From Candidatus Syntrophocurvum alkaliphilum (lineage in GTDB: Bacteria > Bacillota > Syntrophomonadia > Syntrophomonadales > Syntrophomonadaceae): a stretch of DNA of 64,000 bases. Below, in pieces: positions 34,331-63,721 of the stretch (position 1 is the first letter of the stretch; every line of letters begins with the position of its first letter). The position numbers were made by a program, and so were the translations under genes. The stretch is taken from positions 1,668,001-1,732,000 of the forward strand of contig NZ_CP046457.1 of assembly GCF_009734445.1 (NCBI RefSeq), given 5' to 3'. The notes under the pieces are model-generated. The model made no database searches. It was not told where the DNA came from and worked only from the letters and a program-made list of their open reading frames with translations.

Positions 34331-34410
34331 GACAATTTTTTCTTGTTTTCCAAAACATAGTCATGCTAAAGTTAAGCATATAAAAAATTTGATAACTTTA
34401 ATATCAAATT

Positions 34411-34545
34411 TAAAACAGGGAAGCTGGTGAGATTCCAGCACGGTCCCGCCACTGTATTGGGGAATTTTTTCACTCAAGCCACTGGTTATTTATTAACTGG
34501 GAAGGCGTGAAAAATAATGAACCTAAGTCAGGATACCTGTTTAAT
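34411..34545 (+). promoter_or_regulatory. adenosylcobalamin riboswitch
   Basis: It contains GGGAAGCTGGTGAGATTCCA, CACGGTCCCGCCACTGTA, then GCCACTG, GGGAAGGCG and the B12 box AAGTCAGGATACCTG (34525-34539). P1 pairs AAACAGG (34413-34419) with CCTGTTT (34536-34542). A terminator follows at 34604, so B12 should switch off the cobalt-uptake operon. It is the only B12 riboswitch I can see in the window. Confidence 0.97.
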
Positions 34546-34603
34546 AATACTATCTCCTTAGTAGTACCTACGGTGTATAGGTAGGAGAAAACACATGCTA
34601 TTT

Positions 34604-43786: not shown

Positions 43787-43856
43787 ATAAAAAATTATTG
43801 AATTAAAAAGTTCAATAACAAAATTTCTTTATGATTAATATGTTAAAGTGTAATAT

Positions 43857-43913
43857 AAGTGTAACAAAAGTGTTAACTCGAGAAAGCGGTGTTACACTTT
43901 TGTTACACTTTTT
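43857..43913 (+). other. 16-bp inverted repeat with T tract, possible small RNA end
   Basis: AAGTGTAACAAAAGTG (43857-43872) pairs perfectly with CACTTTTGTTACACTT (43895-43910), with a 22-base loop, and is followed by TTT. GTTACACTTTT is repeated directly just after (GTTACACTTTTTGTAACAT). No rightward gene precedes it. It could be the terminator of an unannotated small transcript or a regulator-binding site. Confidence 0.45.
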
Positions 43914-43946
43914 GTAACATATTAGGTTATTAACATAATAGGGTTT

Positions 43947-50240: not shown

Positions 50241-50345
50241 GGACAGGGGAAACGTCAGACAGTGCGAGAAACAACAATAGCTTTCACATGTTTGAACGCC
50301 CCTTGTTCCTAAGACAAAAGGCTAATTAGTTATAAAATTATATGC

Positions 50346-50386
50346 TATAATTATATTTAAGACATCACCCTTAAGGGGTGATTTTT
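50346..50386 (+). promoter_or_regulatory. extended -10 promoter and leader hairpin of the LuxR-type gene
   Basis: TGCTATAAT gives an extended -10 (TATAAT at 50346-50351). It is followed by the hairpin ATCACCC/GGGTGAT (50364-50370/50376-50382) and a run TTTTT, a small terminator or attenuator just ahead of the ribosome site AGGTGAGG. The same arrangement is preserved in the decayed copy at 55372. Confidence 0.5.
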
Positions 50387-50400
50387 AGTAGGTGAGGGTT

Positions 50401-51807
50401 ATGCAAAGTTGGCCTATAGGACTTGGGTTTTGGGCTGGTTGGCTATGGGTAACTTTTTTAAATGGTCCATTTTTATATAAGCTTTTATTAACAACTGATT
50501 CATATCAAATCAATATAGTTATGCTATTATTTTTGTTTTTAAATGCCATTACATATTTGGTTTTGGCTAATGAGGATTATTTAAAAAAGTTTAATAATAA
50601 CTCAATAATTTTTTGTGGCATGATTTTAATGGTGTGCTCTACATTGCTTATTGTTGGAGTTGCTTTTAGTACAGTTTTAAGCCTATACACACTATATTTA
50701 GCAGCTATTTTAGGCGGCATTGGTTCTGCAATAATTCTAATATTTTACGGTGATTTATATAGCCAATATAGTATAAAACATGCTGGATTATATTATGGAA
50801 TATGTTTGGCTATTGCAACTTTGGTTTATTTGGGAATATCTTTTATACATTTAAACCTAGCTATTCTTATAACTTCACTTTTACCTTTGTTTGCTACCTA
50901 TTATCTAATTAAAGGGATGAGTAATACTAACATAAATAAAATAGTTGATAATGAAGACTATACTAAATTAGGTAAGATATCTTTCATCCGTTTAGCTATT
51001 ATGTTCTTTTTATTTTACTTTGTTGGTGGGCTAATGTATAACATTTTGAGCCTATTGCCGAATTTACCTAAACAACAACTATTTTGGTATAGTAGTATAA
51101 TATATTGTGTAGTAATATTTATTGCTGTTGTAAGTATATTTAAGGATGAATTCACTTATCTTCGCTATTCCCATAATCTTGCATTACCACTATTAGGCAT
51201 TGGCTTTTTGCTAGTACCTTTTTTAAGTGGAGGAAGTATTCTAATTTCGTTTTTGTTTTTTCAAATGGGATTTGCTGTTTTTGATTTTTTTGTTTGGATG
51301 ATCCTTTGTTATATTGCTAAAACAACTGCAAATAAACGTCAAGTGTTTGCTTTTGGCTTCTTTATAATTACTTTATCTATGTTTGGCAGTTCTTTCTTTC
51401 ATCAAGGTATAACTTTATATGTAACTAATGTTATTCAACAAATTAACACCCTGTCCATATTAGCCGCAATTTTGATGTTTGTATCAGCACCCCTATTTAC
51501 AAATCTTTTTTCTATAGTTAACACAAATCAAGATAGTTCTGATGACATTATTTCTTTAGCTGAATCAGGAGCAACTTCTGATAATATAGCTGATCCTACC
51601 AACGTTTTTTCTGAATATGGGTTGACCGCACGCGAACACGAAGTATTAGACTTATTATTAAAGGGATATAATAACCCCAACATATGTAATTCTTTAAACA
51701 TAAGTAACAATACTGTAAAAACTCATTTACGAAATATCTATAGAAAAGTTGAAGTATCAAATAGACAAGAACTTATCAATATTTATTATTCTCAAAAAAG
51801 AATATAA
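50401..51807 (+). CDS. 12-TM membrane protein with C-terminal LuxR-type DNA-binding domain
   Basis: A 468-residue protein. Residues 1-380 contain about 12 hydrophobic helices resembling a major-facilitator fold. Residues ~400-465 are a LuxR helix-turn-helix (YGLTAREHEVLDLLLKGYNN, then ISNNTVKTHLRNIYRKVEVSNRQELINIYY). It is a membrane-anchored transcription regulator that may sense a small molecule through its transporter-like part. The ATG at 50401 follows AGGTGAGGG; a GTG at 50392 inside that site is rejected. A ~200-bp decayed copy of its 5' end lies at 55372. Confidence 0.85.
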   Translation: MQSWPIGLGFWAGWLWVTFLNGPFLYKLLLTTDSYQINIVMLLFLFLNAITYLVLANEDYLKKFNNNSIIFCGMILMVCSTLLIVGVAFSTVLSLYTLYLAAILGGIGSAIILIFYGDLYSQYSIKHAGLYYGICLAIATLVYLGISFIHLNLAILITSLLPLFATYYLIKGMSNTNINKIVDNEDYTKLGKISFIRLAIMFFLFYFVGGLMYNILSLLPNLPKQQLFWYSSIIYCVVIFIAVVSIFKDEFTYLRYSHNLALPLLGIGFLLVPFLSGGSILISFLFFQMGFAVFDFFVWMILCYIAKTTANKRQVFAFGFFIITLSMFGSSFFHQGITLYVTNVIQQINTLSILAAILMFVSAPLFTNLFSIVNTNQDSSDDIISLAESGATSDNIADPTNVFSEYGLTAREHEVLDLLLKGYNNPNICNSLNISNNTVKTHLRNIYRKVEVSNRQELINIYYSQKRI

Positions 51808-51855: not shown

Positions 51856-51990
51856 TATAATAAATTAAGAATCTAAAAATTTAATATATGGTGTAATTAA
51901 AACTTTTCACCGATAAAGGCAAACCATCAGAAATGATGGGACGCAAAGCTAGAGGGCCTGTAAAATGGCAGCCAGCTACCGAAAGGGGAG
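51856..51990 (+). promoter_or_regulatory. cyclic di-GMP-I (GEMM) riboswitch with promoter
   Basis: TATAAT (51856-51861) starts the leader. The GEMM-I core runs about 51911-51982: AAAGGCAAACC, stem CCATCA-GAAA-TGATGG with a GAAA tetraloop, GGGACGCAAAGCTAGAGGGCC, and the receptor CAGCCAGCTACCGAAA. The 3' flank GAAAGGGGAG is the ribosome site of the next gene and could pair with CTTTTC upstream of the core, so c-di-GMP may control translation by masking it. Confidence 0.93.
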
Positions 51991-51997
51991 TTTTTTT

Positions 51998-52999
51998 GTG
52001 TTTAAACGTTTTATATTTATAAAAATAATTGCATTAATCATAGCACTACTTTTTACCATATCTACAAATGTCTACGCAGTGGTACCAGGGTATGATTCTA
52101 ATAAAACAATAGAACAAGCTAACTTAGCAGACGATGTTTTTACCCTCCAAACTAAAATTGATATAAAAAACAACAGTAATAACACTATAAATAATGTAAA
52201 AGTTAATCTCTCACTATTAGGAATAGATGATTCATTTCAAGAGCTTTTAAAAGAAGAGTTTTCTAAAAAACCTACTCAAATTGGTGAAAAGCAGTATCAT
52301 GCTAGAGTAGCTACTTTTTCATTTGATTCTTTAGAACCTAAACAAACTAAAACTTTAGTTATAGAAAATGTGATTAATATTCACAGTAAAAATAATGGAA
52401 TAGTCGAGGAGGACATACTAGAATATCTTGAACCTGCTAATAAAATCGAAAGTGACCATCCAGATATTATTAAACAAGCTCAAGCACTAACTAATAACCT
52501 AGATAACGATTATGAAAAAGCAAAATCAATATACGCTTTTGTACGAGATAATATTAATTATGACCTGCAATCACCCTATAGAAACAAAGGGGCATTAAGT
52601 GCATTTGTTACTCAAGAAGGGGTTTGTGAAGAATATGCTTCTCTTTTTGTGGCACTTTGTAGAGCATCTGAAATCCCTGCACGAATAGTAAATGGATTCG
52701 CTGACCCTAAAGCAAATGGTGAAACCTGGAATAAAAGTGCCAATGAAGCACTATCACTTAACCAATATCGTCATAGTTGGGCTGAATTTTATACAGAAGA
52801 TAAAGGATGGCTACCAGCTGATCCAACATTTGATAGTCCTAATAAAGGTATGAAATACTTTGGCTCTATACCTTATCCTAGTCACATTGCACAAAACTAT
52901 CATGACCTACCTTTGCAATTAAGCTATCAGGGGCCTAGAGGTTTGCCACTAGAGGTTAATTGGGATAATAAAATGATTTTCAATAAATTTGTTAACTAA
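51998..52999 (+). CDS. secreted transglutaminase-like protein under c-di-GMP control
   Basis: A 333-residue protein starting with GTG behind AAGGGGAG. A signal peptide (FKRFIFIKIIALIIALLFTI, cleavage near NVYA) comes first. An N-terminal beta-rich region (about 30-150) follows. The transglutaminase-like core has Cys in GVCEEYASLFVALCRASEIP, His in RHSWAEFYTEDKGW and Asp in PADPTFD, giving a Cys-His-Asp triad. It may process or crosslink cell-surface protein. The riboswitch directly upstream links it to the sessile/motile decision. The longer frame from 51965 lies within the riboswitch and is rejected. Confidence 0.88.
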   Translation: MFKRFIFIKIIALIIALLFTISTNVYAVVPGYDSNKTIEQANLADDVFTLQTKIDIKNNSNNTINNVKVNLSLLGIDDSFQELLKEEFSKKPTQIGEKQYHARVATFSFDSLEPKQTKTLVIENVINIHSKNNGIVEEDILEYLEPANKIESDHPDIIKQAQALTNNLDNDYEKAKSIYAFVRDNINYDLQSPYRNKGALSAFVTQEGVCEEYASLFVALCRASEIPARIVNGFADPKANGETWNKSANEALSLNQYRHSWAEFYTEDKGWLPADPTFDSPNKGMKYFGSIPYPSHIAQNYHDLPLQLSYQGPRGLPLEVNWDNKMIFNKFVN

Positions 53000-53186: not shown

Positions 53187-54404
53187 TCACAAGATGCTTT
53201 GAGTAATTTTTTTCATTTCAATACGTAAAAATACCTTTTCCTCGCTAGATTTGGTTTTAAAAACTTTATCAATCCTTTTTAATACATTCTCAGCTTGTTT
53301 TTCATTTAGGCTATTTAATATTAACAGGCACTGTCTGTCATTCCAACAAGTAACTGTATCACCTTTTCGAAGATTTTTTACCAATAATTCCTGTAAGTAT
53401 CCAAGTATTTCTTTCATTTTTTCATTATTTCTACCCTGATATTTTAAATCTGTTAAAGATAATGCTACTAATATGGCTTTCGATTCATTTCTTTCAGAAC
53501 GTCGACATTCAAGTTTGTATAAGTAGTTAAATATATCTATATCACATAAAAATGCTCCTATGCTTTTTTCTTTCTCTTCATTTAATCTTTTTTCTATATC
53601 TAATAACCTAAGTTCGGTATTGTTTGTTTCACCATTTAAATACCCCTTAATGTTTTGCATTTCAACAGAAGGTTTTACTCCTAATTCTTTATAAAAGCTT
53701 TTACTCATGTTTTGATAATGTTGTTCTGCTTGTTTTATTCTACCATCTTTTACTAAGGCATCTAAGAAGAATAAGTGGATACTTTCATCGTAATAATCTA
53801 TTTCCAGCGCCTTTTCACAAGTAGAAATAATGTTAGTGTATTGTTTTTCTTTTTTTAACAAATTTAATAGTCTTTTTGAACCCTCTAAATATCTTCTTAG
53901 ATAATAATGTCTTATTGGTATAACCCATTCTTGATATAAATTTTCTGCTAGGTAATCACCTTTATATAATTCTAATGCTTGTGTATATTTGTGAATTGAA
54001 CCAGTAGGATTATTTATTTCTTCAGAGTTCGCCTCATTTAGCAATCTTTCAAATTCTTCAGTATCTAACTCGTAGTTAGACTCTTTGTTCCAGCAGTAAC
54101 CACCCTGATTAAATTTTATACAAGTAAATTGTTTGAGTTCTTCCATATCTAAAATATTGCGCAAACGATAAACGAGTGTACGTAATGCATGCTTTGAATC
54201 AGTGTATTCTTCCTCCGGCCACAATGTATCCATAATAGCTTCTGGTAAAAGAATCCTGTCACGATAGGTGATTATGTATTTTAGTAGCTCCCACATTTTA
54301 TAGGATCGCGTATGACTCTGTGAATACACCTGTGTACCTCTGCTAATTTCAAATTTTCCAAATGTTTTAATAACTAAAGGATTTATAGTTTCTTGCTTTA
54401 ACAT
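53187..54404 (-). CDS. SARP-type regulator (winged helix + BTAD) with degenerate GGDEF-like C-terminus, copy 1
   Basis: A 405-residue protein. An OmpR-like winged helix lies at about 10-100 (FGKFEISRGTQVYSQSHTRS and ALRTLVYRLRNIL). A BTAD/TPR domain lies at about 105-255 (YKGDYLAENLYQEWV and KQAEQHYQNMSKSFYKELGVKPS). The C-terminal ~120 residues resemble GGDEF: R346-KGD349 aligns with the RxxD I-site, and five residues later NDRQC replaces GGDEF. It is probably a transcription activator that could bind c-di-GMP without making it. It lies 61 bp after the diguanylate cyclase gene in the same direction. AAGGGGGGGGAG precedes the ATG. Confidence 0.85.
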   Translation of the reverse strand: MLKQETINPLVIKTFGKFEISRGTQVYSQSHTRSYKMWELLKYIITYRDRILLPEAIMDTLWPEEEYTDSKHALRTLVYRLRNILDMEELKQFTCIKFNQGGYCWNKESNYELDTEEFERLLNEANSEEINNPTGSIHKYTQALELYKGDYLAENLYQEWVIPIRHYYLRRYLEGSKRLLNLLKKEKQYTNIISTCEKALEIDYYDESIHLFFLDALVKDGRIKQAEQHYQNMSKSFYKELGVKPSVEMQNIKGYLNGETNNTELRLLDIEKRLNEEKEKSIGAFLCDIDIFNYLYKLECRRSERNESKAILVALSLTDLKYQGRNNEKMKEILGYLQELLVKNLRKGDTVTCWNDRQCLLILNSLNEKQAENVLKRIDKVFKTKSSEEKVFLRIEMKKITQSIL

Positions 54405-54465: not shown

Positions 54466-55251
54466 TTACAATATTTTCTTAATATTGTTTTTAACAGATA
54501 GCTTGTGTTGATACATTCGACTATCAGCTATATCAATTAAATCTTCAACAAGCTTAGCATCTTCAGGAAAGCTTGCCACACCTAGACTTAGGCTTATTTT
54601 ATGATTTATTTTTAGATTATCTATTTCTTGTCCTAACCGTAATGAAATTTGTTCTGCATTTTTTTTATTAGTATCGGGAAGTATTAATATAAACTCATCT
54701 CCACCATATCTGATAAAAACATCTGATTTTCTAATATGCTTTTTTATCTCTTTTGCAATACGATATAAAATCAAATCACCGGCTTGATGCCCAAAGTCAT
54801 CATTAACACTTTTAAAATTGTTTATATCCATAAATACTATAGAAATTGGTTTATCTATTTTTTCTGCCGATAATATATTGTTTTTCAGTATTCTAAATAA
54901 AATATTTTTATTATATATACCTGTCAATAAGTCATAATTAGCTTGGTATATTAGATTACTTAAAGTTTTATGTATAAATATTGTCATTATAGTAGTACCT
55001 AGTATTAATAAAATATAAAACAAAATATTATATACTATTGAGTCAGAAGCTGCTATATTAGCAAAAACTCCTATAACTACCGCTAGTGCTATTAATGACA
55101 AACCGATTGCTATTAATATTATTAATGGTTTATCTTCCCTTAATATCTCAACTTGTACTAATTTCACAAGAATACTTGCAAGAATTACTGAACTTATTAG
55201 TGCTACCATAATGTATACATTTTTATCTATTAACAAAATTTCATTAAACAT
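54466..55251 (-). CDS. membrane diguanylate cyclase (GGDEF)
   Basis: A 261-residue protein. Three membrane helices lie at about 11-33, 42-65 and 71-95. The GGDEF domain at about 100-261 has ANYDLLTGIYNK, FMDINNFKSVNDDFGHQAGD, an I-site R174-KSD177 and the active motif RYGGDEF (183-187). All residues for making c-di-GMP and for feedback inhibition are present. The ATG at 55251 follows TAGGAGTG. The next gene is SARP copy 1, so the pair is probably an operon of enzyme and candidate receptor. The sensory input through the short membrane part is unknown. Confidence 0.92.
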   Translation of the reverse strand: MFNEILLIDKNVYIMVALISSVILASILVKLVQVEILREDKPLIILIAIGLSLIALAVVIGVFANIAASDSIVYNILFYILLILGTTIMTIFIHKTLSNLIYQANYDLLTGIYNKNILFRILKNNILSAEKIDKPISIVFMDINNFKSVNDDFGHQAGDLILYRIAKEIKKHIRKSDVFIRYGGDEFILILPDTNKKNAEQISLRLGQEIDNLKINHKISLSLGVASFPEDAKLVEDLIDIADSRMYQHKLSVKNNIKKIL

Positions 55252-55371
55252 CAAATCACTCCTACTCAATAAGTTGGGTTCAATTTAAACTAATCATTTA
55301 AGAGGTTCATTAGTTTTAAACATCCTATAATAACTTGTAAATTTTTGATTTCGAAGCAATTATTTTACAAT

Positions 55372-55575
55372 ATTATATGCTGTTTTTTCATTAAGCACAT
55401 CACCTTAAAGGGGTGATTTTAAGTGGGTGAGGGGGTTATGTACGGGTGCTAATACAACTTGGGTTTTAAGCTGGATAGCTGTGAGCAACCTTTCTAATTA
55501 GACCACTTATTTATAAATTGTTATCAACTTCTGATTCAATAAGTATTGTTTTGTTATCATTTTTGTTTTTAATAT
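55372..55575 (+). pseudogene. decayed copy of the 5' region of the 12-TM LuxR-type gene
   Basis: This ~200-bp stretch aligns with 50340-50550: ATTATATGCTG, hairpin CATCACCTTAAAGGGGTGAT, GTGGGTGAGGGGGTTATG, then ACTTGGGTTTT and, to the right, ATTTTTGTTTTTAA. Frameshifts and stops destroy the reading frame and no helix-turn-helix end remains. It is most likely a relic of a partial duplication. It occupies most of the 55252-55621 gap. Confidence 0.7.
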
Positions 55576-55610: not shown

Positions 55611-55634
55611 AAAAAACCAGTTTACTTAACTGGT
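55611..55634 (-). terminator. terminator of the LPXTG-sortase operon
   Basis: On the minus strand ACCAGTT (55634-55628) pairs with AACTGGT (55622-55616), followed by TTTTT. The sortase stop codon lies in the loop. Confidence 0.75.
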
Positions 55635-56230
55635 CTTTTAGTTTCAGTTAGATATGCTCTAACAATTAATCGATCATTTCTGCCACCTGGTGGTCTTATT
55701 AGTGGGTCACAAGTAGTTAAGGTTATTGCTGGTTTAGGTGTTGGGTCAATAACACTCCAATCACGATTATGTGTTACAAAAACATTTTCTACAGAGTAAA
55801 CATATTTTCTTTCTCTATAGTAAAGTTTTATAGAGTCTCCTGTATTAAGCTGGTGTAAATTTAAAAATGATTGATTACGGTGACCAGCAATACTAACATT
55901 GCCATTATCCGGGTAACCACTTTGTGGATAAAAACATAAACCTCTATCTAAATCCGACTGTTCCACACCATAATATATTTTTTCACTTAATTCTAAAGAG
56001 GGAATTTCTAAAACTCCTTTATCTTCTATTAATTTATCCGGTATAATCTCTTTTTCATTTTCAATTTCTTCATCTATGTTATTAGTAACAGTTAATTTTT
56101 CTTCCTCTATTACGTTCCTACTACTTAATTTGTTATAGTGATAATCGATATATGGAGAAAAGATAAATCCAATACCGACTAGTAATAAGAGTACACCAAT
56201 AAATAAATACGTTTTACCTCTAAAACTCAT
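55622..56230 (-). CDS. sortase (class D/E-like)
   Basis: A 202-residue sortase. One N-terminal membrane anchor lies at about 8-28 and a charged stalk at 35-70. The catalytic core has His in VSIAGHRNQSFLNLH, Cys in AITLTTCDPL and Arg in DRLIVRAYL, the His-Cys-Arg triad. It is encoded 9 bp after an LPXTG protein and is very likely its dedicated anchoring enzyme. TLTTC and the compact size suggest class D or E rather than class A, but the subclass is not certain. Confidence 0.9.
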   Translation of the reverse strand: MSFRGKTYLFIGVLLLLVGIGFIFSPYIDYHYNKLSSRNVIEEEKLTVTNNIDEEIENEKEIIPDKLIEDKGVLEIPSLELSEKIYYGVEQSDLDRGLCFYPQSGYPDNGNVSIAGHRNQSFLNLHQLNTGDSIKLYYRERKYVYSVENVFVTHNRDWSVIDPTPKPAITLTTCDPLIRPPGGRNDRLIVRAYLTETKRPVK

Positions 56231-56239
56231 AGAATTTTA

Positions 56240-57643
<1,404 letters not shown>

Positions 57644-57715: not shown

Positions 57716-57961
57716 TTAGAACGATTCTTTCTTATCCCATTTTCTAAATTCATTGTCTGTTTCTGGTGTATCAGCTTCATTTAAGGCATCTTGTAAAAGC
57801 ATGATCATTTCTAGTTCACTGCGAAATGGCATACTTTTTCTCCCATCAAGCCACTGAATTACCCCTTGCCAGCTCATATTTTGTCTGTAGTATATCCGAA
57901 TTAAAAATGTAGTACCCCCTGTAGTTTCGAAGAATTCTTGCTCGAGGCTCTTGTCTTTCAT
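57716..57961 (-). CDS. uncharacterised small protein, first gene of the LPXTG-sortase operon
   Basis: An 81-residue soluble protein that I cannot assign to a named family. It begins MKDKSLEQEFFETTGGTTFL. The central IRIYYRQNMSWQGVIQWLDGR is followed by FRSELEMIMLLQDAL, and the end is charged. AAAGGAGGAATAT precedes the ATG. Three GTGA-type direct repeats lie ~90 bp upstream and the LPXTG gene follows 72 bp later. It may be a regulator or assembly factor for the surface protein; nothing in the sequence decides. Confidence 0.75.
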   Translation of the reverse strand: MKDKSLEQEFFETTGGTTFLIRIYYRQNMSWQGVIQWLDGRKSMPFRSELEMIMLLQDALNEADTPETDNEFRKWDKKESF

Positions 57962-58024: not shown

Positions 58025-58078
58025 ACTTTACATTTGAATAAATACAGGTGAATCATCTAAAAGTCACAACAAAATCAC
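58025..58078 (-). promoter_or_regulatory. three 11-bp-spaced direct repeats upstream of the LPXTG operon (candidate SARP box)
   Basis: On the minus strand GTGATTTTGTT (58078-58068), GTGACTTTTAG (58067-58057) and ATGATTCACCT (58056-58046) are in tandem with one-helical-turn spacing. A -10-like TAAAGT lies at 58030-58025. It matches the arrangement before the flp pilus operon. It lies just past the terminator of SARP copy 2, so it marks an independent promoter. Confidence 0.6.
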
Positions 58079-58147: not shown

Positions 58148-59377
58148 TTATGCATTCAAGGTGTTTTGAGAGATGTTTTTCATTTCAATTCGTAGGAAGA
58201 CCTCTTCTTTACTAGATTTGGTTTTAAATCTTTTATCTATCCTTTTTAGTACACTCTCTGCCTGGGCTTCATTCAGACTATTTAATATCAATAGGCATTG
58301 TCTATCATTCCAAGAGGTAATAATATCACCTTTCCGAAGATTTGTTACCAATAATTCCTGTAAATGTTCCAGTATTTTTTTCATATTTTCATTATTTCTA
58401 CCCTGATATTTTAAATCAGTTAAGGATAATGCTGCTAAAATGGCTGTAGATTCATTTCTTTCAGCACGTCGACATTCAAGTTTGTATAAGTAATTAAATA
58501 TATCTATATCACATAAAAAAGCTCCTATACTTTTTTCACTCTCTTCATTATCCTTTAGCCTTTTTTCTATATCTAATAATCTAAGTTCGGTATTATTTGT
58601 TTCACCATTTAAATGCCCCTTAATGTTTTGCATTTCTATAGAGGGTTTTACTCCTAGTTCCTTATAAAAGCTTTTACTCATGTTTTGATAATGTTGTTCT
58701 GCTTGTTTTAATCTACCATCTTTTACCAAAGCATCTAAAAAGAATAAATGAATACCCTCATCGTAATAGTCTATTTCTAGTGCCTTTTCACAAATAGCAA
58801 TAATGTTAGTGTATTGTTTTTCTTTTTTTAACAGGTTTAATAACCTTTTTGAACTTTCTAGGTATCTTCTAAGGTAATAGTGTCTTATTGGTATTACCCA
58901 TTCTTGATATAAGTTTTCTGATAAATAATCACCCTTATATAATTCTAATGCTTTTGTATATTTATAAATTGCATTAGCAGGGTTTGTAACTTCTTCTGCA
59001 CTAGCTTCATTTAATAATCTTTCAAATACTTCAGTATCTAACTCGTAGTTAGAATCTTGGTTCCAGCAGTAACCACCCTGGTTAAATTTTATACAAGTAG
59101 ATTCTTTGGGCTCTTCTATATCTAAGATAGTGCGTAGACGATAAACAAGTGTGCGCAATGCATGTTTTGGATCAGTGTATTCTTCCTCAGGCCACAGTGT
59201 CTCCATAATTGCTTCTGGTAAAAGAATCCTATCACGATATGTGAGTATGTATTTTAACAGCTCCCACATTTTATAGGATCGTGTGTGACTCTGTGAATAC
59301 ACCTGTGTACCCCTACTAATTTCAAATTTTCCTAATGTTTTAATAACTAGAGGTTTTAAGGTTTCTTGCTCAATCAT
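58148..59377 (-). CDS. SARP-type regulator with degenerate GGDEF-like C-terminus, copy 2
   Basis: A 409-residue paralogue of the protein at 53187, near-identical over most of its length. The winged helix and BTAD are conserved, the linker is two residues longer (RLKDNEESEK), and the C-terminus again keeps RKGD (348-351) with NDRQC in place of GGDEF. The ATG at 59377 follows GGAGAGAG; the longer frame to 59593 covers the intergenic promoter region and is rejected. It is divergent from the Tad operon, with the GTGA repeats in between, and is therefore the likely pilus regulator. Confidence 0.87.
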   Translation of the reverse strand: MIEQETLKPLVIKTLGKFEISRGTQVYSQSHTRSYKMWELLKYILTYRDRILLPEAIMETLWPEEEYTDPKHALRTLVYRLRTILDIEEPKESTCIKFNQGGYCWNQDSNYELDTEVFERLLNEASAEEVTNPANAIYKYTKALELYKGDYLSENLYQEWVIPIRHYYLRRYLESSKRLLNLLKKEKQYTNIIAICEKALEIDYYDEGIHLFFLDALVKDGRLKQAEQHYQNMSKSFYKELGVKPSIEMQNIKGHLNGETNNTELRLLDIEKRLKDNEESEKSIGAFLCDIDIFNYLYKLECRRAERNESTAILAALSLTDLKYQGRNNENMKKILEHLQELLVTNLRKGDIITSWNDRQCLLILNSLNEAQAESVLKRIDKRFKTKSSKEEVFLRIEMKNISQNTLNA

Positions 59378-59528
59378 AAATCTCTCTCCATAAACACTTT
59401 TTTTAATATTATTCACCATTGTAATTTTATTTCCATTTTTTGTAAATAAAATTTTGCCATTTTTTGTATGCAGTTTGCATATATATAATTGAAGCTTTTC
59501 GTCCATCATGTGAAATTTTTTTATTGTT

Positions 59529-59584
59529 GTGACTGTTTTGTGATTTTGCAGTGATTTGACTATATTTTGATAGTTGTATATTAA
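59529..59584 (+). promoter_or_regulatory. three 11-bp-spaced GTGA repeats and promoter of the Tad pilus operon
   Basis: GTGACTGTTTT (59529), GTGATTTTGCA (59540) and GTGATTTGACT (59551) are exact 11-bp steps. The last overlaps a -35 TTGACT (59556-59561), with TATTAA 17 bp later (59579-59584). Tandem repeats at one helical turn that overlap the -35 are the usual binding mode of SARP activators. The rest of 59378-59707 is AT-rich; the transcript would have a ~120-base leader before flp. Confidence 0.65.
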
Positions 59585-59707
59585 GTTCAACAAAACAATT
59601 ACTTAAATGGTCAGAGCGCTCAGCCATAAAAGTAGATGTACTGAAATAATGTATGACTATTTCAGTTAAAAAGTACTTAAAAAAAATATTAAAGGAGATG
59701 TGTATTA

Positions 59708-59875
59708 ATGGAAATTTTAAAAAGGTTAGTTAGAGAAGAAGAAGGACAAGGAATGGTGGAGTATGGACTGATAATAGCTTTGGTAGCAATAGCTGTCATT
59801 ACTGCATTAACTGCTGTTGGTGAAGAAGTTGGAACGGTATTTGATGACATAGTTAAAGGTCTTAAAGGTGACTAA
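59708..59875 (+). CDS. flp: Flp-type pilin
   Basis: A 55-residue prepilin. The basic leader MEILKRLVREEEGQG is followed by MVEYGLIIALVAIAVITAL, with the Glu and Tyr of the Flp motif (G/xxxxEY) and a short hydrophobic pilin helix, then GEEVGTVFDDIVKGLKGD. Processing is expected after a Gly in EEGQG by the prepilin peptidase encoded next. AAAGGAGATG precedes the ATG. It is the main structural subunit of a Tad pilus and the first gene of the operon. Confidence 0.93.
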   Translation: MEILKRLVREEEGQGMVEYGLIIALVAIAVITALTAVGEEVGTVFDDIVKGLKGD

Positions 59876-59903
59876 ATTACTTAGATAACTGAGGTGTTTT
59901 TAC

Positions 59904-60389
59904 ATGATTCTTACACCACTTACACTACTAGTGGTTGGGATAGCTGCCGGGTATGATTATATGACCCGGCGCATCCCTAATTTTTTAACTTTCCCAGCCA
60001 TTATTTTGGGGTTGGGTTTAAATGCATATTATTATGGTTTTCCAGGTTTAGGTAATGGAGCACTGGGTATGCTCCTTGGTATAGCACTACTACTAATCCC
60101 CTTCTTTATCGGAGGGATGGGTGCTGGAGATGTAAAGCTTTTAGCTGCAGTAGGTGCTATAAATGGTACAGCTTTTGTACTAACTACATTTATTTATTCA
60201 GCTTTAATAGGTGGAATTATGTCTATCATAGCCATCATTTTAAAAAGGCAATTTAAAGCAACGATGAGTAATATGTTTTTGTTTATGGTACCCGGAGCAA
60301 AGATGTCACAGCCCAAAACAGGTATTCCTTATGGAATAGCGATATTTTTAGGCACAATACTATCCTTTTATACGGGGGTTATATGGTGA
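59904..60389 (+). CDS. cpaA: Tad prepilin peptidase (A24 family, CpaA/TadV)
   Basis: A 161-residue membrane protease with about five or six helices. The two catalytic aspartates are in GYDYMTRRIPNFLTF and GGMGAGDVKLLAAVGA (GxGD motif). It cuts the leader of Flp and the TadE-like pseudopilins. Small size without the N-methylase domain is normal for Tad-type enzymes. It lies 28 bp after flp and overlaps the next gene by 7 bp. Confidence 0.92.
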   Translation: MILTPLTLLVVGIAAGYDYMTRRIPNFLTFPAIILGLGLNAYYYGFPGLGNGALGMLLGIALLLIPFFIGGMGAGDVKLLAAVGAINGTAFVLTTFIYSALIGGIMSIIAIILKRQFKATMSNMFLFMVPGAKMSQPKTGIPYGIAIFLGTILSFYTGVIW

Positions 60390-60802
60390 GAAGATTTAAA
60401 AGAAATGAATCTGGACAAAGTTTAGTTGAAATGGCACTAGTTCTTCCCATTCTATTAATGCTGCTTTTAGGCATTATAGAATGTGGAAGAATTTTTGGTA
60501 GTTATATGGAGCTACAAAGCACCGCCAGAGATGCGGTTAGATATGCGGCTGTGCATAATATTGCTGAGGAAGAGGACCAAGCCCCTGCGATTTTAACTTC
60601 TTTAATTGAAGGTCGTTTAGTGTTACTTGATCCTAATAATTTACGAATTGAGTTTGAACAAGAAGAATCCAATAATCAGAAGGATAAATGGGCTACTGTT
60701 AGTCTCGAATATGATTTGGATATTATTTACCCTTTTATTGGTTTAATAACAGATAACACCATTCTCGTACTAAACAGCGAAATGGTTATGAGAGTGGAAT
60801 AG
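60383..60802 (+). CDS. tadE: TadE-like pseudopilin
   Basis: A 139-residue protein. The basic start MVRRFKRNESGQSLVEMALVLP and the helix ILLMLLLGIIECGRIF are typical TadE (SGQSLVEMALVLPILL). YMELQSTARDAVRYAAVHN follows, then a short extracytoplasmic domain. It is a minor pseudopilin needed for Tad pilus assembly. The start overlaps cpaA. Confidence 0.9.
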   Translation: MVRRFKRNESGQSLVEMALVLPILLMLLLGIIECGRIFGSYMELQSTARDAVRYAAVHNIAEEEDQAPAILTSLIEGRLVLLDPNNLRIEFEQEESNNQKDKWATVSLEYDLDIIYPFIGLITDNTILVLNSEMVMRVE

Positions 60803-60812
60803 GAGGATAGAA

Positions 60813-61817
60813 ATGAAAAAATTGATTAAGAAAGAAAAGGGTTCAGTGACTATTTTAACTGCTTTAGCCATGGTAGTACTTATTGGTTTTTCTGCCCTTG
60901 CTATAGATGGAGGTAATTTATATTTTAGACACATGAATTTGCAAGATATATCAGATGCTAGTGCTTTAGCAGGTTGTAAAGAGTTAATAAAATCTCAAGG
61001 TAATGATAATAAGAAAAAGGAAGACGCATTTGATAAAGCAATAGATTATATGGAGCATAATGGAATAACGGTTATAAGCCGTAATAAACATAACTATACT
61101 GCAATGATTAAGTTAAATGACAATGAAACAGGTGAAGTACTAGTATCCTTTCCTGATGGTACAAAAGAAGTCAAAGTAGACCTTAATATAGATACTACAC
61201 TTTATTTCGCAAGGATTTTTGGTTCAAGTTCTAGTGAGGTTGCAGCTTCGGCTATAGCTAGCTCAGGTGGTGCAAGTCAATACACAGGAGGTTTGGTTCC
61301 TTTATCATTCTTTTGGGGAAAAGAAGAAGGAGAAGAAGAATATAAAACTGGTATAGAATATGAGTTAAGCTTGACATCAGGGGACGGTGAAAGCGGCAAC
61401 TACGGGTTTTTAGATATAGATGAAAACCCTAATAAATTTTATGAATACTTAGCTGATGGTTATCCTGGCACATTAAGTGTAGGTGATGAAGTGCAAACCT
61501 ACCCTGGTGTTAGTGCAGGTCTTATTGATAGGGGTATAGAGGATAGAATCTCTAATTGTTGCGGTAATTGTGACGAAGAAGAAAATTTCGACCCAGATTG
61601 TTCTAGAGTTGTAATTGTACCCATTGTCAGTGATTTCTTCGAGGATAACAATGGTAAAACTTGGATTGAAATTGTTGGTTTTGCTCAGTTTTATATCATT
61701 GACTATGACAAAAAAGATAAAATTTTAACTGGTGTATTCATTGAGGATGTTACTCATTCTCCTAGTCTATTTGACGCTCCTCAATACATGGTCCAATCAG
61801 TAAGACTAGTTCAATAA
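60813..61817 (+). CDS. tadG: TadG-like pilus-assembly protein
   Basis: A 334-residue protein. The N-terminal KKEKGSVTILTALAMVVLIGFSALAIDGGNLYFRHMNLQDISDASALAGCKEL is the TadG/flp-pilus assembly hallmark. The extracytoplasmic remainder has a Cys cluster (SNCCGNCDEEENFDPDC). There is no von Willebrand-type domain of full length, so it is a short form. GGAGGATAGAA precedes the ATG. Confidence 0.85.
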   Translation: MKKLIKKEKGSVTILTALAMVVLIGFSALAIDGGNLYFRHMNLQDISDASALAGCKELIKSQGNDNKKKEDAFDKAIDYMEHNGITVISRNKHNYTAMIKLNDNETGEVLVSFPDGTKEVKVDLNIDTTLYFARIFGSSSSEVAASAIASSGGASQYTGGLVPLSFFWGKEEGEEEYKTGIEYELSLTSGDGESGNYGFLDIDENPNKFYEYLADGYPGTLSVGDEVQTYPGVSAGLIDRGIEDRISNCCGNCDEEENFDPDCSRVVIVPIVSDFFEDNNGKTWIEIVGFAQFYIIDYDKKDKILTGVFIEDVTHSPSLFDAPQYMVQSVRLVQ

Positions 61818-61833
61818 GAAAGGGAGGGTAAAA

Positions 61834-62532
61834 ATGGAAAATATTAAGCCAAGAGTGTGGGTAATTATTACTGTAGTTATAGCGTTAATAACTAGTCTAC
61901 TAATATATACCTATTTAGAATCACTGCAAGCGGCAGAGGCAGTGGAGAAAGCTGAAGTAGTAGTAGCTAGTCGTATATTAGAAGAAGGTACTAGAATTAA
62001 TAGCGATATGTTAGAGACTGTAACAGTACCAGTCCAATATGCCCACCCTGAAGCTTTAACTAATACAAGTGATGTTGTAAACAAATATGCAGCAGTAAAT
62101 CTTTATCCTGAGCAAGCTATTTTAGGTAGACAGCTAGTAAGTCATGATAGTCGGGAAATGCCTTTTAGAATACCAGAAGATATGAGAGCAATTACGATTG
62201 ATATTAATACTACCAGTGGAGTAGCTGGTTTTATAAAGCCTGGATATAAGGTAGATATAATTTATACCGTTAGAACGGAAAATGATGAAACCAGAACAGT
62301 GACTTTATTAGATGAAATATTGGTTTTAGCTGTAGGTGAAGAGATTACTAAAGTTGAGGATAATATGTCCTCTAGTAATGTTACTCTTGCTGTTAAGCCA
62401 GATGATGCTCAACTTATTACTTTAGCCGAAAATACTGGAAATTTAAAGCTTAGTTTAAGACCTATTGAAGATAATACTCAAAAGCCAACTACATTTAGTG
62501 ATGTAAGAAGAATACTTAACAACTATCAGTAA
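61834..62532 (+). CDS. cpaB: Flp pilus assembly protein CpaB (RcpC)
   Basis: A 232-residue protein. An N-terminal anchor (RVWVIITVVIALITSLLIYTYL) is followed by a SAF domain (VVVASRILEEGTRINSDMLETVTVPVQYAHPEAL) and the RcpC/CpaB domain (AITIDINTTSGVAGFIKPGYKVDIIYTVR). Family members act in the envelope in Tad pilus biogenesis. GGGAGGG precedes the ATG. Confidence 0.92.
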   Translation: MENIKPRVWVIITVVIALITSLLIYTYLESLQAAEAVEKAEVVVASRILEEGTRINSDMLETVTVPVQYAHPEALTNTSDVVNKYAAVNLYPEQAILGRQLVSHDSREMPFRIPEDMRAITIDINTTSGVAGFIKPGYKVDIIYTVRTENDETRTVTLLDEILVLAVGEEITKVEDNMSSSNVTLAVKPDDAQLITLAENTGNLKLSLRPIEDNTQKPTTFSDVRRILNNYQ

Positions 62533-62548
62533 GGAAGGGGGTTAAATA

Positions 62549-63721
62549 ATGGAAAAAGCTACAATTTTACTTATAGATTTTATGGTAAAAAACGATTTAA
62601 AGGATTATTTAGATCAACAAACTGGTATTTCTGTGGTCGGTATTACAGATAATGTGGATATTGCTTTTACTATGGCAGAACGATATGAACCTACAATAAT
62701 TATTCTTAACCTAGACTTAACTGTTGATGAAGTAGGATTAGATATTGCAGAAGCCTTTGCTTTAGAGTTTACTTCTTCTAGCTTAATTTTAATGAGCAGT
62801 TTAGATAATAAAAAAATTCTGCGTCATGCACTTAAAGTAGGTGCTAAGGATGTAATTACTCTACCTATTGAAAACAAAAAAATATTAAAGATTATACAAC
62901 AAGTAGCTAAGTATGACTTAAAGCGTAGAGAATTGTTTTCTATAAAAAAGAAAGTTCAACCCCAATTTAAAGTAATTACAGTCTTTAATACTAAAGGGGG
63001 TGTAGGTAAAAGTACGGTCTCACTTAATCTAGCTATTGCTATCCAACAATTAACTAAAGATAGGGTGCTTTTAGCTGATTTAGACCTTTTTTCCGGAAAC
63101 TTATCATTAATGGCGGGAGTGGATGCAAGGCGAACTATAAAAGATATGATAGATGAATTAAATAACTTAGATAAAGAATTTTTGGATGAATTTTGTATTA
63201 ACCATTATTCTGGAATAAAAATTTTAACTGCTCCAGCCCATCCTGAGTATGCTAGCTTTATTGAAGCTGAGCACATTGAAAAGATTTTAAATCTAGTATC
63301 ACAGGTTTTCAACTATGTTGTTATAGATGCCCCAACCCATTTTTCAGATACAGTTATTCCAGCTCTTGAATTTGCCCAGGAAATTATAATTGTGGCAAAT
63401 CCCGATTTAGCATCTATACAAAATCTAAAACAATGTCTAGACCTTTTAAATAGTTTATCTATGCAATCTAAAGTTAAAGTAGTATTCAATAAGGTTGGTA
63501 ATAATGGTTATTTAGATGTTAAGGATTTAGAAAAACAATTAGGTGTCGATGTTCAATGTAACATTCCTAATTGTGAAAAGGAGGCCCTTAATGCTGTTAA
63601 TTTAGGAGTACCCTTGATACTAGAGTATAAGAAAATACCTGCATCACAAAAAATACGCGAATTCGCTGCAAAGCTCGTAGGTGATAATAAATCTAAATCT
63701 TTTGTAGAGCTTAGAAGGTAG
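62549..63721 (+). CDS. cpaE: Tad pilus localisation ATPase CpaE/TadZ
   Basis: A 390-residue protein. A receiver-like N-terminal domain (1-125) lacks a clear phospho-Asp pocket. A ParA/MinD-type ATPase follows: KVITVFNTKGGVGKSTVSLNLA (deviant Walker A), RVLLADLDLFSGNLSLMAG, then YVVIDAPTHFSD. TadZ proteins place the secretion ATPase at the pole. GGAAGGGGG precedes the ATG. Confidence 0.9.
   Translation: MEKATILLIDFMVKNDLKDYLDQQTGISVVGITDNVDIAFTMAERYEPTIIILNLDLTVDEVGLDIAEAFALEFTSSSLILMSSLDNKKILRHALKVGAKDVITLPIENKKILKIIQQVAKYDLKRRELFSIKKKVQPQFKVITVFNTKGGVGKSTVSLNLAIAIQQLTKDRVLLADLDLFSGNLSLMAGVDARRTIKDMIDELNNLDKEFLDEFCINHYSGIKILTAPAHPEYASFIEAEHIEKILNLVSQVFNYVVIDAPTHFSDTVIPALEFAQEIIIVANPDLASIQNLKQCLDLLNSLSMQSKVKVVFNKVGNNGYLDVKDLEKQLGVDVQCNIPNCEKEALNAVNLGVPLILEYKKIPASQKIREFAAKLVGDNKSKSFVELRR

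Follow-up and report, generated by a model that had tools for sequence, protein, structure and literature searches.

Upstream of the flp gene of Candidatus Syntrophocurvum alkaliphilum, short direct repeats separate a Tad pilus operon from a divergent gene for a SARP-type protein. SARPs are known mainly as activators of antibiotic clusters in actinomycetes, and the locus raises the question of which protein reads these repeats and which genes they serve. The window, that is, the whole stretch of DNA that was analyzed, is 64,000 nucleotides long. We assign a probability of about 0.83 to the reading that the repeats form a SARP operator, bound by SARP1 and probably by its paralogue SARP2, and that the arrays on the two sides of the SARP1 gene drive the ORF81-LPXTG-sortase and flp-Tad operons. 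From the sequence we infer that the flp box is functional and that SARP1 both binds the repeats and acts as an activator.

Two repeat arrays and the operons that they precede

The initial annotation had described three GTGA copies at a spacing of exactly 11 bp, and a check of the sequence bears this out: GTGACTGTTTT, GTGATTTTGCA and GTGATTTGACT start at 59529, 59540 and 59551, respectively. The repeats are real, but only one of two boxes had been seen. The second, missed earlier, lies on the minus strand at 58078, 1.45 kb from the flp array, where GTGATTTTGTT GTGACTTTTAG ATGATTCACCT precede the ORF81-LPXTG-sortase genes. The elements of the two arrays, read from the sequence, and the genes behind them are as follows.

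59529 to 59535, plus strand: repeat R1 of the flp array, GTGACTG
59540 to 59546, plus strand: repeat R2 of the flp array, GTGATTT
59551 to 59557, plus strand: repeat R3 of the flp array, GTGATTT
59562 to 59568, plus strand: possible degenerate repeat R4 of the flp array, ATATTTT, placed by phase only, 8 bp from the -10
59577 to 59582, plus strand: best flp -10 candidate, TATATT, 19 bp (8 + 11) past R3
59579 to 59584, plus strand: alternative flp -10, TATTAA, 17 bp from TTGACT
58039 to 58078, minus strand: second operator, before ORF81-LPXTG-sortase, predicted from sequence and the external matrix
58078 to 58072, minus strand: R1 of the ORF81 array, GTGATTT
58067 to 58061, minus strand: R2 of the ORF81 array, GTGACTT
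58056 to 58050, minus strand: R3 of the ORF81 array, ATGATTC
58045 to 58039, minus strand: weak R4 of the ORF81 array, GTATTTA
58025 to 58030, minus strand: -10 candidate of the ORF81 operon, TAAAGT, 19 bp past R3 and 8 bp past R4
57716 to 57961, minus strand: ORF81, small protein, the conserved gene after SARP
56240 to 57643, minus strand: surface protein with an LPQTGG anchor (TIGR01167 LPXTG_anchor above cut-off) and a region of GDN repeats at about 290-365
55622 to 56230, minus strand: sortase, class D/E-like (TIGR01076 above cut-off)
59708 to 63721, plus strand: Tad operon (Pfam)
59708 to 59875, plus strand: flp
59904 to 60389, plus strand: cpaA
60383 to 60802, plus strand: tadE
60813 to 61817, plus strand: tadG
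61834 to 62532, plus strand: cpaB
62549 to 63721, plus strand: cpaE
from about 63733: cpaF-like ORF, read by eye from the sequence

The arrays were ranked with a matrix trained solely on sites from other genomes, by which about 128,000 window positions were scored. The flp and ORF81 sites take the top two places, with the R1-R2 pair of the flp array first (16.2 bits) and the R1-R2 pair of the ORF81 array second (14.0 bits), and the next unrelated site reaches 10.2 bits. The R2-R3 pair of the flp array ranks 31 and its R3-R4 pair is poor, at rank 152. The R3-R4 pair of the ORF81 array ranks 4, which supports the weak fourth repeat there. Aligned without gaps over 60 bp, the two promoters share 38 identities, compared with a mean of 32.6 and a maximum of 37 in 300 shuffles.

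The collagen-like adhesin models matched by the GDN-repeat surface protein are below cut-off. In the DNA encoding the GDN repeats (56560-56850) other frames are open as well (METMET... on the minus strand and VSI/SPL repeats on the plus strand), which is a simple-repeat effect. The flp leader contains a nine-base-pair hairpin at 59640-59666 (ACTGAAATA...TATTTCAGT), and the folding energy of the leader RNA is unremarkable (z = -1.28).

SARP1 and the geometry of its candidate promoters

The regulator genes and a putative promoter are listed here.

58148 to 59377, minus strand: SARP1, 409 aa from an ATG start preceded by GGAGAG; OmpR-type winged helix, BTAD and C-terminal degenerate GGDEF domain
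53187 to 54404, minus strand: SARP2, paralogue 87% identical to SARP1
59418 to 59446, minus strand: possible housekeeping promoter of SARP1, TTTACA-17-TACAAT, 10/12 consensus matches, clear of the operator

The divergent gene beside flp had been called SARP-type, and this assignment is upheld by several lines of evidence. Trans_reg_C and BTAD score above the Pfam cut-offs (GGDEF is below its own), the profile match to AfsR is 2.6e-13, and the AlphaFold model (pLDDT 83) matches the folds of AfsR (E 1e-10, TM 0.78 by target) and EmbR. The DNA-contact residues of AfsR are Trp-74, Arg-87, Thr-88, Arg-92 and Arg-94, with Lys-95 and Pro-79 also named (PMC10936776). In an ungapped profile alignment read by eye, the first five are identical in SARP1, and Pro-79 and Lys-95 are replaced by Tyr and Thr. 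A link between Ala at the position of Thr-88 (in G002, G010, G019 and G062) and GTAA repeats was considered and dropped, because genomes with Thr or Ser also have GTAA. Separately, a 215-bp stretch at 55365-55572 is 73% identical (E 1e-31) to 50330-50542 and repeats the start of a membrane LuxR-type gene (50401-51807); as an apparently decayed copy of that start, it suggests that the SARP2/SARP1 block arose by duplication.

Several known systems resemble the arrangement in part. AfsR at the afs box of afsS in Streptomyces coelicolor (PMC10936776, PDB 8HVR and 8K60) likewise combines a winged helix and BTAD with 11-bp direct repeats, its contact residues are, as aligned, conserved in SARP1, and the 8-bp distance from the 3' repeat to the -10 is shared by the afs box and most relatives of the window promoter. 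In contrast, AfsR carries NOD and TPR domains where SARP1 has a degenerate GGDEF domain after BTAD, the afs box has two repeats whereas SARP1-type arrays have up to four or six, and phylum and targets differ. EmbR of Mycobacterium tuberculosis (PDB 2FEZ) has the winged helix and BTAD fold of the SARP1 model but ends in an FHA domain instead of a GGDEF-like one. The PimR operator of pimM in Streptomyces natalensis consists of three heptamers with 4-bp spacers (PMC5930380, PMC3367932), giving the same period of 11 bp, and likewise lies between a regulator gene and a divergent target. One PimR monomer sits on each heptamer, the counterpart of the one protomer per repeat proposed here. The PimR array lies outside the classical 8-bp position, as do the three good repeats of each window array, and the PimR operator is a known exception to -35 overlap. 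PimR differs in being an actinomycete SARP-LAL that targets an antibiotic regulator gene, in its heptamer (CGGCAAG versus GTGAYTN here) and in an array placed farther upstream.

Published SARP promoters have direct repeats spaced by 11 or 22 bp, the 3' one lying 8 bp from the -10 (PMC10936776). Among sites in relatives, TANNNT is found at gap 8 from the 3' repeat in 13 of 18 against a background of about 0.02 per position, or in 10 of 15 by a fair count that omits three sites recovered solely with a pattern demanding the 8-bp -10. G002, G010 and G062 have TATAAA 9 bp from the 3' repeat. For the two window promoters, 19 bp after R3 (8 + 11) is the sole gap with TANNNT in both; the best -10 lies 19 bp beyond the last good repeat, and only the weak fourth repeat has the 8-bp spacing. 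Both window arrays comprise three good repeats and a weak fourth at the 8-bp position, and degenerate last repeats are also present in the arrays of other genomes. Two phylum-wide loci, counted by eye, give similar pictures: in L187, GTGACTG/GTGACTC/GTGACCA is followed by TATGTT 19 bp past the third repeat, as in the window, and in L193 the degenerate last of six 11-bp repeats is 8 bp before TATTAT. We take such arrays to finish with a weak repeat that occupies the -35 position.

The earlier proposal that the third repeat overlaps a -35 fares less clearly. TTGACT at 59556-59561, the -35 then named, does share bases with R3, but the interpretation depends on which -10 is chosen. TTGACT and TATTAA at 17 bp may instead form the flp promoter, and overlap of the array with a functional -35 is uncertain.

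In the proposed mechanism, SARP1, and probably also SARP2, would bind the 11-bp repeats through the OmpR-type winged helix, with a single protomer on each repeat and all protomers on the same DNA face, and the bound SARP would bring RNA polymerase to a weak promoter. The two operators, placed divergently on either side of the SARP1 gene, would thereby drive the ORF81-LPXTG-sortase and flp-Tad operons, and we propose that, if both are SARP-driven, the surface adhesin and the pilus are co-activated.

Conservation of the box and its probable targets

Among the 63 class genomes, the extended pair GTGAYTNNNTTGTGAYT occurs seven times, always at SARP/ORF81 loci (two in the source genome, one in G051, two in G067 and two in G021), and its reversed control has six matches, one each in six genomes. 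A broadened pattern with R at position 3, allowing GTAA, and a -10 at 8 bp gave 14 matches versus 6 for the control; 12 of the 14 fall in three g22 genomes, each with two SARPs. The sites added by this pattern precede an SD-repeat protein (G021) and a small membrane-like protein of 43-44 aa (three genomes), and of the remaining additions one is unclear and one is probably chance. Some of these totals count orthologous sites repeatedly, and several sites in relatives are non-independent. The search patterns were refined after the first sites had been seen, and therefore the external-matrix ranking, the held-out genome G062 and the phylum-wide loci weigh most. G062 has a GTAA-repeat box before a gene of the ORF81 family. 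The boxes in G025 and G049 are weak and have no -10 at 8 bp. In three Syntrophomonas-type genomes (loci L127, L128 and L134) a GTAACTCATTTGTAATT box with TATACT at 8 bp stands before the conserved 43-44-aa membrane-like protein.

At the SARP loci of other genera and families the box recurs, as would be expected of an operator, before ORF81 homologues, usually just downstream of the SARP homologue, and the recurring gene order is SARP, ORF81, LPXTG protein, sortase. Full-length SARP is present in 14 of the 63 class genomes, ORF81 in 11 and both in 10 (Fisher p = 8e-8); phylum-wide, ORF81 is downstream of SARP in 13 of 23 loci. SARP homologues within the source genome's family are about 30-40% identical. 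The combination of box, SARP and ORF81 is conserved across genera and families.

Control of the Tad operon, the role first proposed for the box, is a different matter. The repeats do behave as a SARP-type operator, but the conserved target is ORF81-LPXTG-sortase and the flp box looks local. None of 11 Tad flp promoters of relatives has the repeats, nor does the second Tad locus of the source genome with its two flp genes (L062, G000:C1:1536500-1552500), and the flp-side box is known from one genome, the only one of its genus among those covered. Because SARP adjoins Tad genes in none of the 13 relatives with SARP1's family whose loci were read, the comparison of orthologous flp genes is silent on SARP1. 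Tad genes are also absent within about 1.5 kb of SARP in all 23 phylum-wide loci. Together with the box-free flp promoters elsewhere, this suggests that the conserved role lies with surface proteins and that a surface-protein regulon seems to have been extended locally, in the source lineage, to include the Tad operon.

The distribution also lends itself to another interpretation, to which we give a low probability: the SARP operator is real but truly serves only ORF81-LPXTG-sortase and/or the SARP gene, the copy before flp being either a relic or a site for SARP1 autoregulation. Other genomes do keep the box solely before genes of the ORF81 or surface-protein type, and the flp box does sit in the SARP1-flp divergent region. 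However, the array on the flp side outscores the ORF81 array and every other site of the window, all three of its repeats point toward flp, and its -10 has the same phase as at ORF81. Against autoregulation, a same-strand box was absent before SARP genes in 16 of 16 cases (best score 8.3), and a separate promoter-like site for SARP1 lies 83 bp from the flp box, one of four such sites found compared with 2.6 expected in shuffles.

Binding by another protein, with the SARP neighborhood a coincidence, is considerably less probable still. Direct repeats of 11 bp are also read by OmpR/PhoB regulators, and half sites of CRP have the sequence TGTGA, so the repeats would suit a different OmpR/PhoB-type response regulator or a CRP/FNR-type protein. 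Yet the boxes track the SARP gene through many genera and phylum-wide, CRP/FNR sites are inverted whereas the window repeats are direct, and no response-regulator gene was noticed adjoining the boxes in the loci that were read.

Taken alone, the bare 11-bp GTGA triple is only mildly unusual and is weak evidence, and other 4-mers gave a few further 11-bp triples within the 64-kb window; the second copy at 58078 is what lifts the flp repeats above chance. In the 64 kb, GTGA pairs spaced by 11 bp are confined to two places, and spacings of 10 or 12 bp gave no pairs. With zero mismatches, GTGAYTNTNNNGTGAYTNT finds the same two places only in the genome; three one-mismatch matches to the extended pattern were set aside because the control gave more. 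A fortuitous run of three GTGA copies in an A+T-rich intergenic region, suggested by one genome match each for the bare triple and its reversed control, is highly improbable given that the extended pair has exactly two occurrences in 2.36 Mb, one on either side of the SARP1 gene, that these hold ranks 1 and 2 by the external matrix, and that every other GTRAYT pair of the genome falls inside an open reading frame or right at its start. Because of this last result, no further regulon target is proposed.

The favored reading, a SARP operator serving both operons, would describe a SARP family with its own predicted conserved operator, tied to surface adhesins, sortases and the Tad pilus in a Bacillota-type phylum. 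It would open a first way into the question of how syntrophic bacteria switch on their Tad pili and LPXTG proteins, and the operator consensus is directly testable.

The degenerate GGDEF domain and c-di-GMP

Profile matches to GGDEF structures and diguanylate cyclases give the C-terminal domain of SARP1 a GGDEF fold. Its GG(D/E)EF active-site motif reads NDRQC, and the motif is degenerate in all 16 aligned homologues and in 23 further ones. The c-di-GMP inhibitory site (I-site) of PleD comprises Arg-359, Asp-362 and Arg-390 (PMC7288161). The SARP1 equivalents Arg-348, Asp-351 (RxxD) and Arg-379 are invariant in the 16 aligned homologues; among the 23 further phylum-wide homologues, RxxD is present in all 23 and Arg-379 in 22, with one Lys. 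Profile alignments to solved GGDEF structures back the alignment of RxxD with the PleD site. PelD of Pseudomonas aeruginosa and other degenerate GGDEF receptors likewise retain the c-di-GMP-binding RxxD (PMC7288161), although PelD, unlike SARP1, is a membrane regulator of exopolysaccharide and not DNA-binding.

Further c-di-GMP-related features lie near SARP2.

51909 to 51984, plus strand: c-di-GMP-I-GGC riboswitch preceding a secreted transglutaminase-like gene; Rfam score 67.2 bits against a cut-off of 59
51965 to 52999: secreted transglutaminase-like ORF (Transglut_core)
54466 to 55269, minus strand: membrane GGDEF protein, candidate diguanylate cyclase, adjoining SARP2 (TIGR00254 above cut-off)

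Riboswitches for c-di-GMP are found near SARP in the window and in G010, G062, G024 and G063, and in the last two a riboswitch also lies between ORF81 and the LPXTG-type gene. Given the near-invariant I-site residues and the repeated presence of c-di-GMP riboswitches at these loci, a SARP that senses c-di-GMP is plausible, as a reasonable hypothesis and not a result. A wider version, which we hold tentatively and at somewhat less than even odds, is that of a widespread family of SARP activators whose degenerate GGDEF domain binds c-di-GMP via the I-site, controlling binding to the array and so coupling wall-anchored surface proteins, and here Tad pili, to c-di-GMP alongside the riboswitches. 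No description of SARPs as c-di-GMP effectors was found among the open-access papers that were searched, and literature searches for SARP in Firmicutes, SARP with Tad, and BTAD with GGDEF returned nothing relevant. If the degenerate GGDEF domain does sense c-di-GMP, SARPs would become c-di-GMP effectors.

Among the loci read, L117 (8886-9154 and 12140-12223) and L120 (1446-1715 and 4593-4676), from two genomes, have tandem c-di-GMP-I riboswitches before SARP, and in both a riboswitch of the c-di-GMP-II class separates ORF81 from the surface-protein gene. Elsewhere in the window, SAM and cobalamin riboswitches are located at 853-956 and 34373-34558, respectively, and an intergenic AAGTG triple at exact 11-bp spacing (AAGTGTAATAT AAGTGTAACAA AAGTGTTAACT) lies at 43846-43880, followed by inverted copies near 43890-43915.
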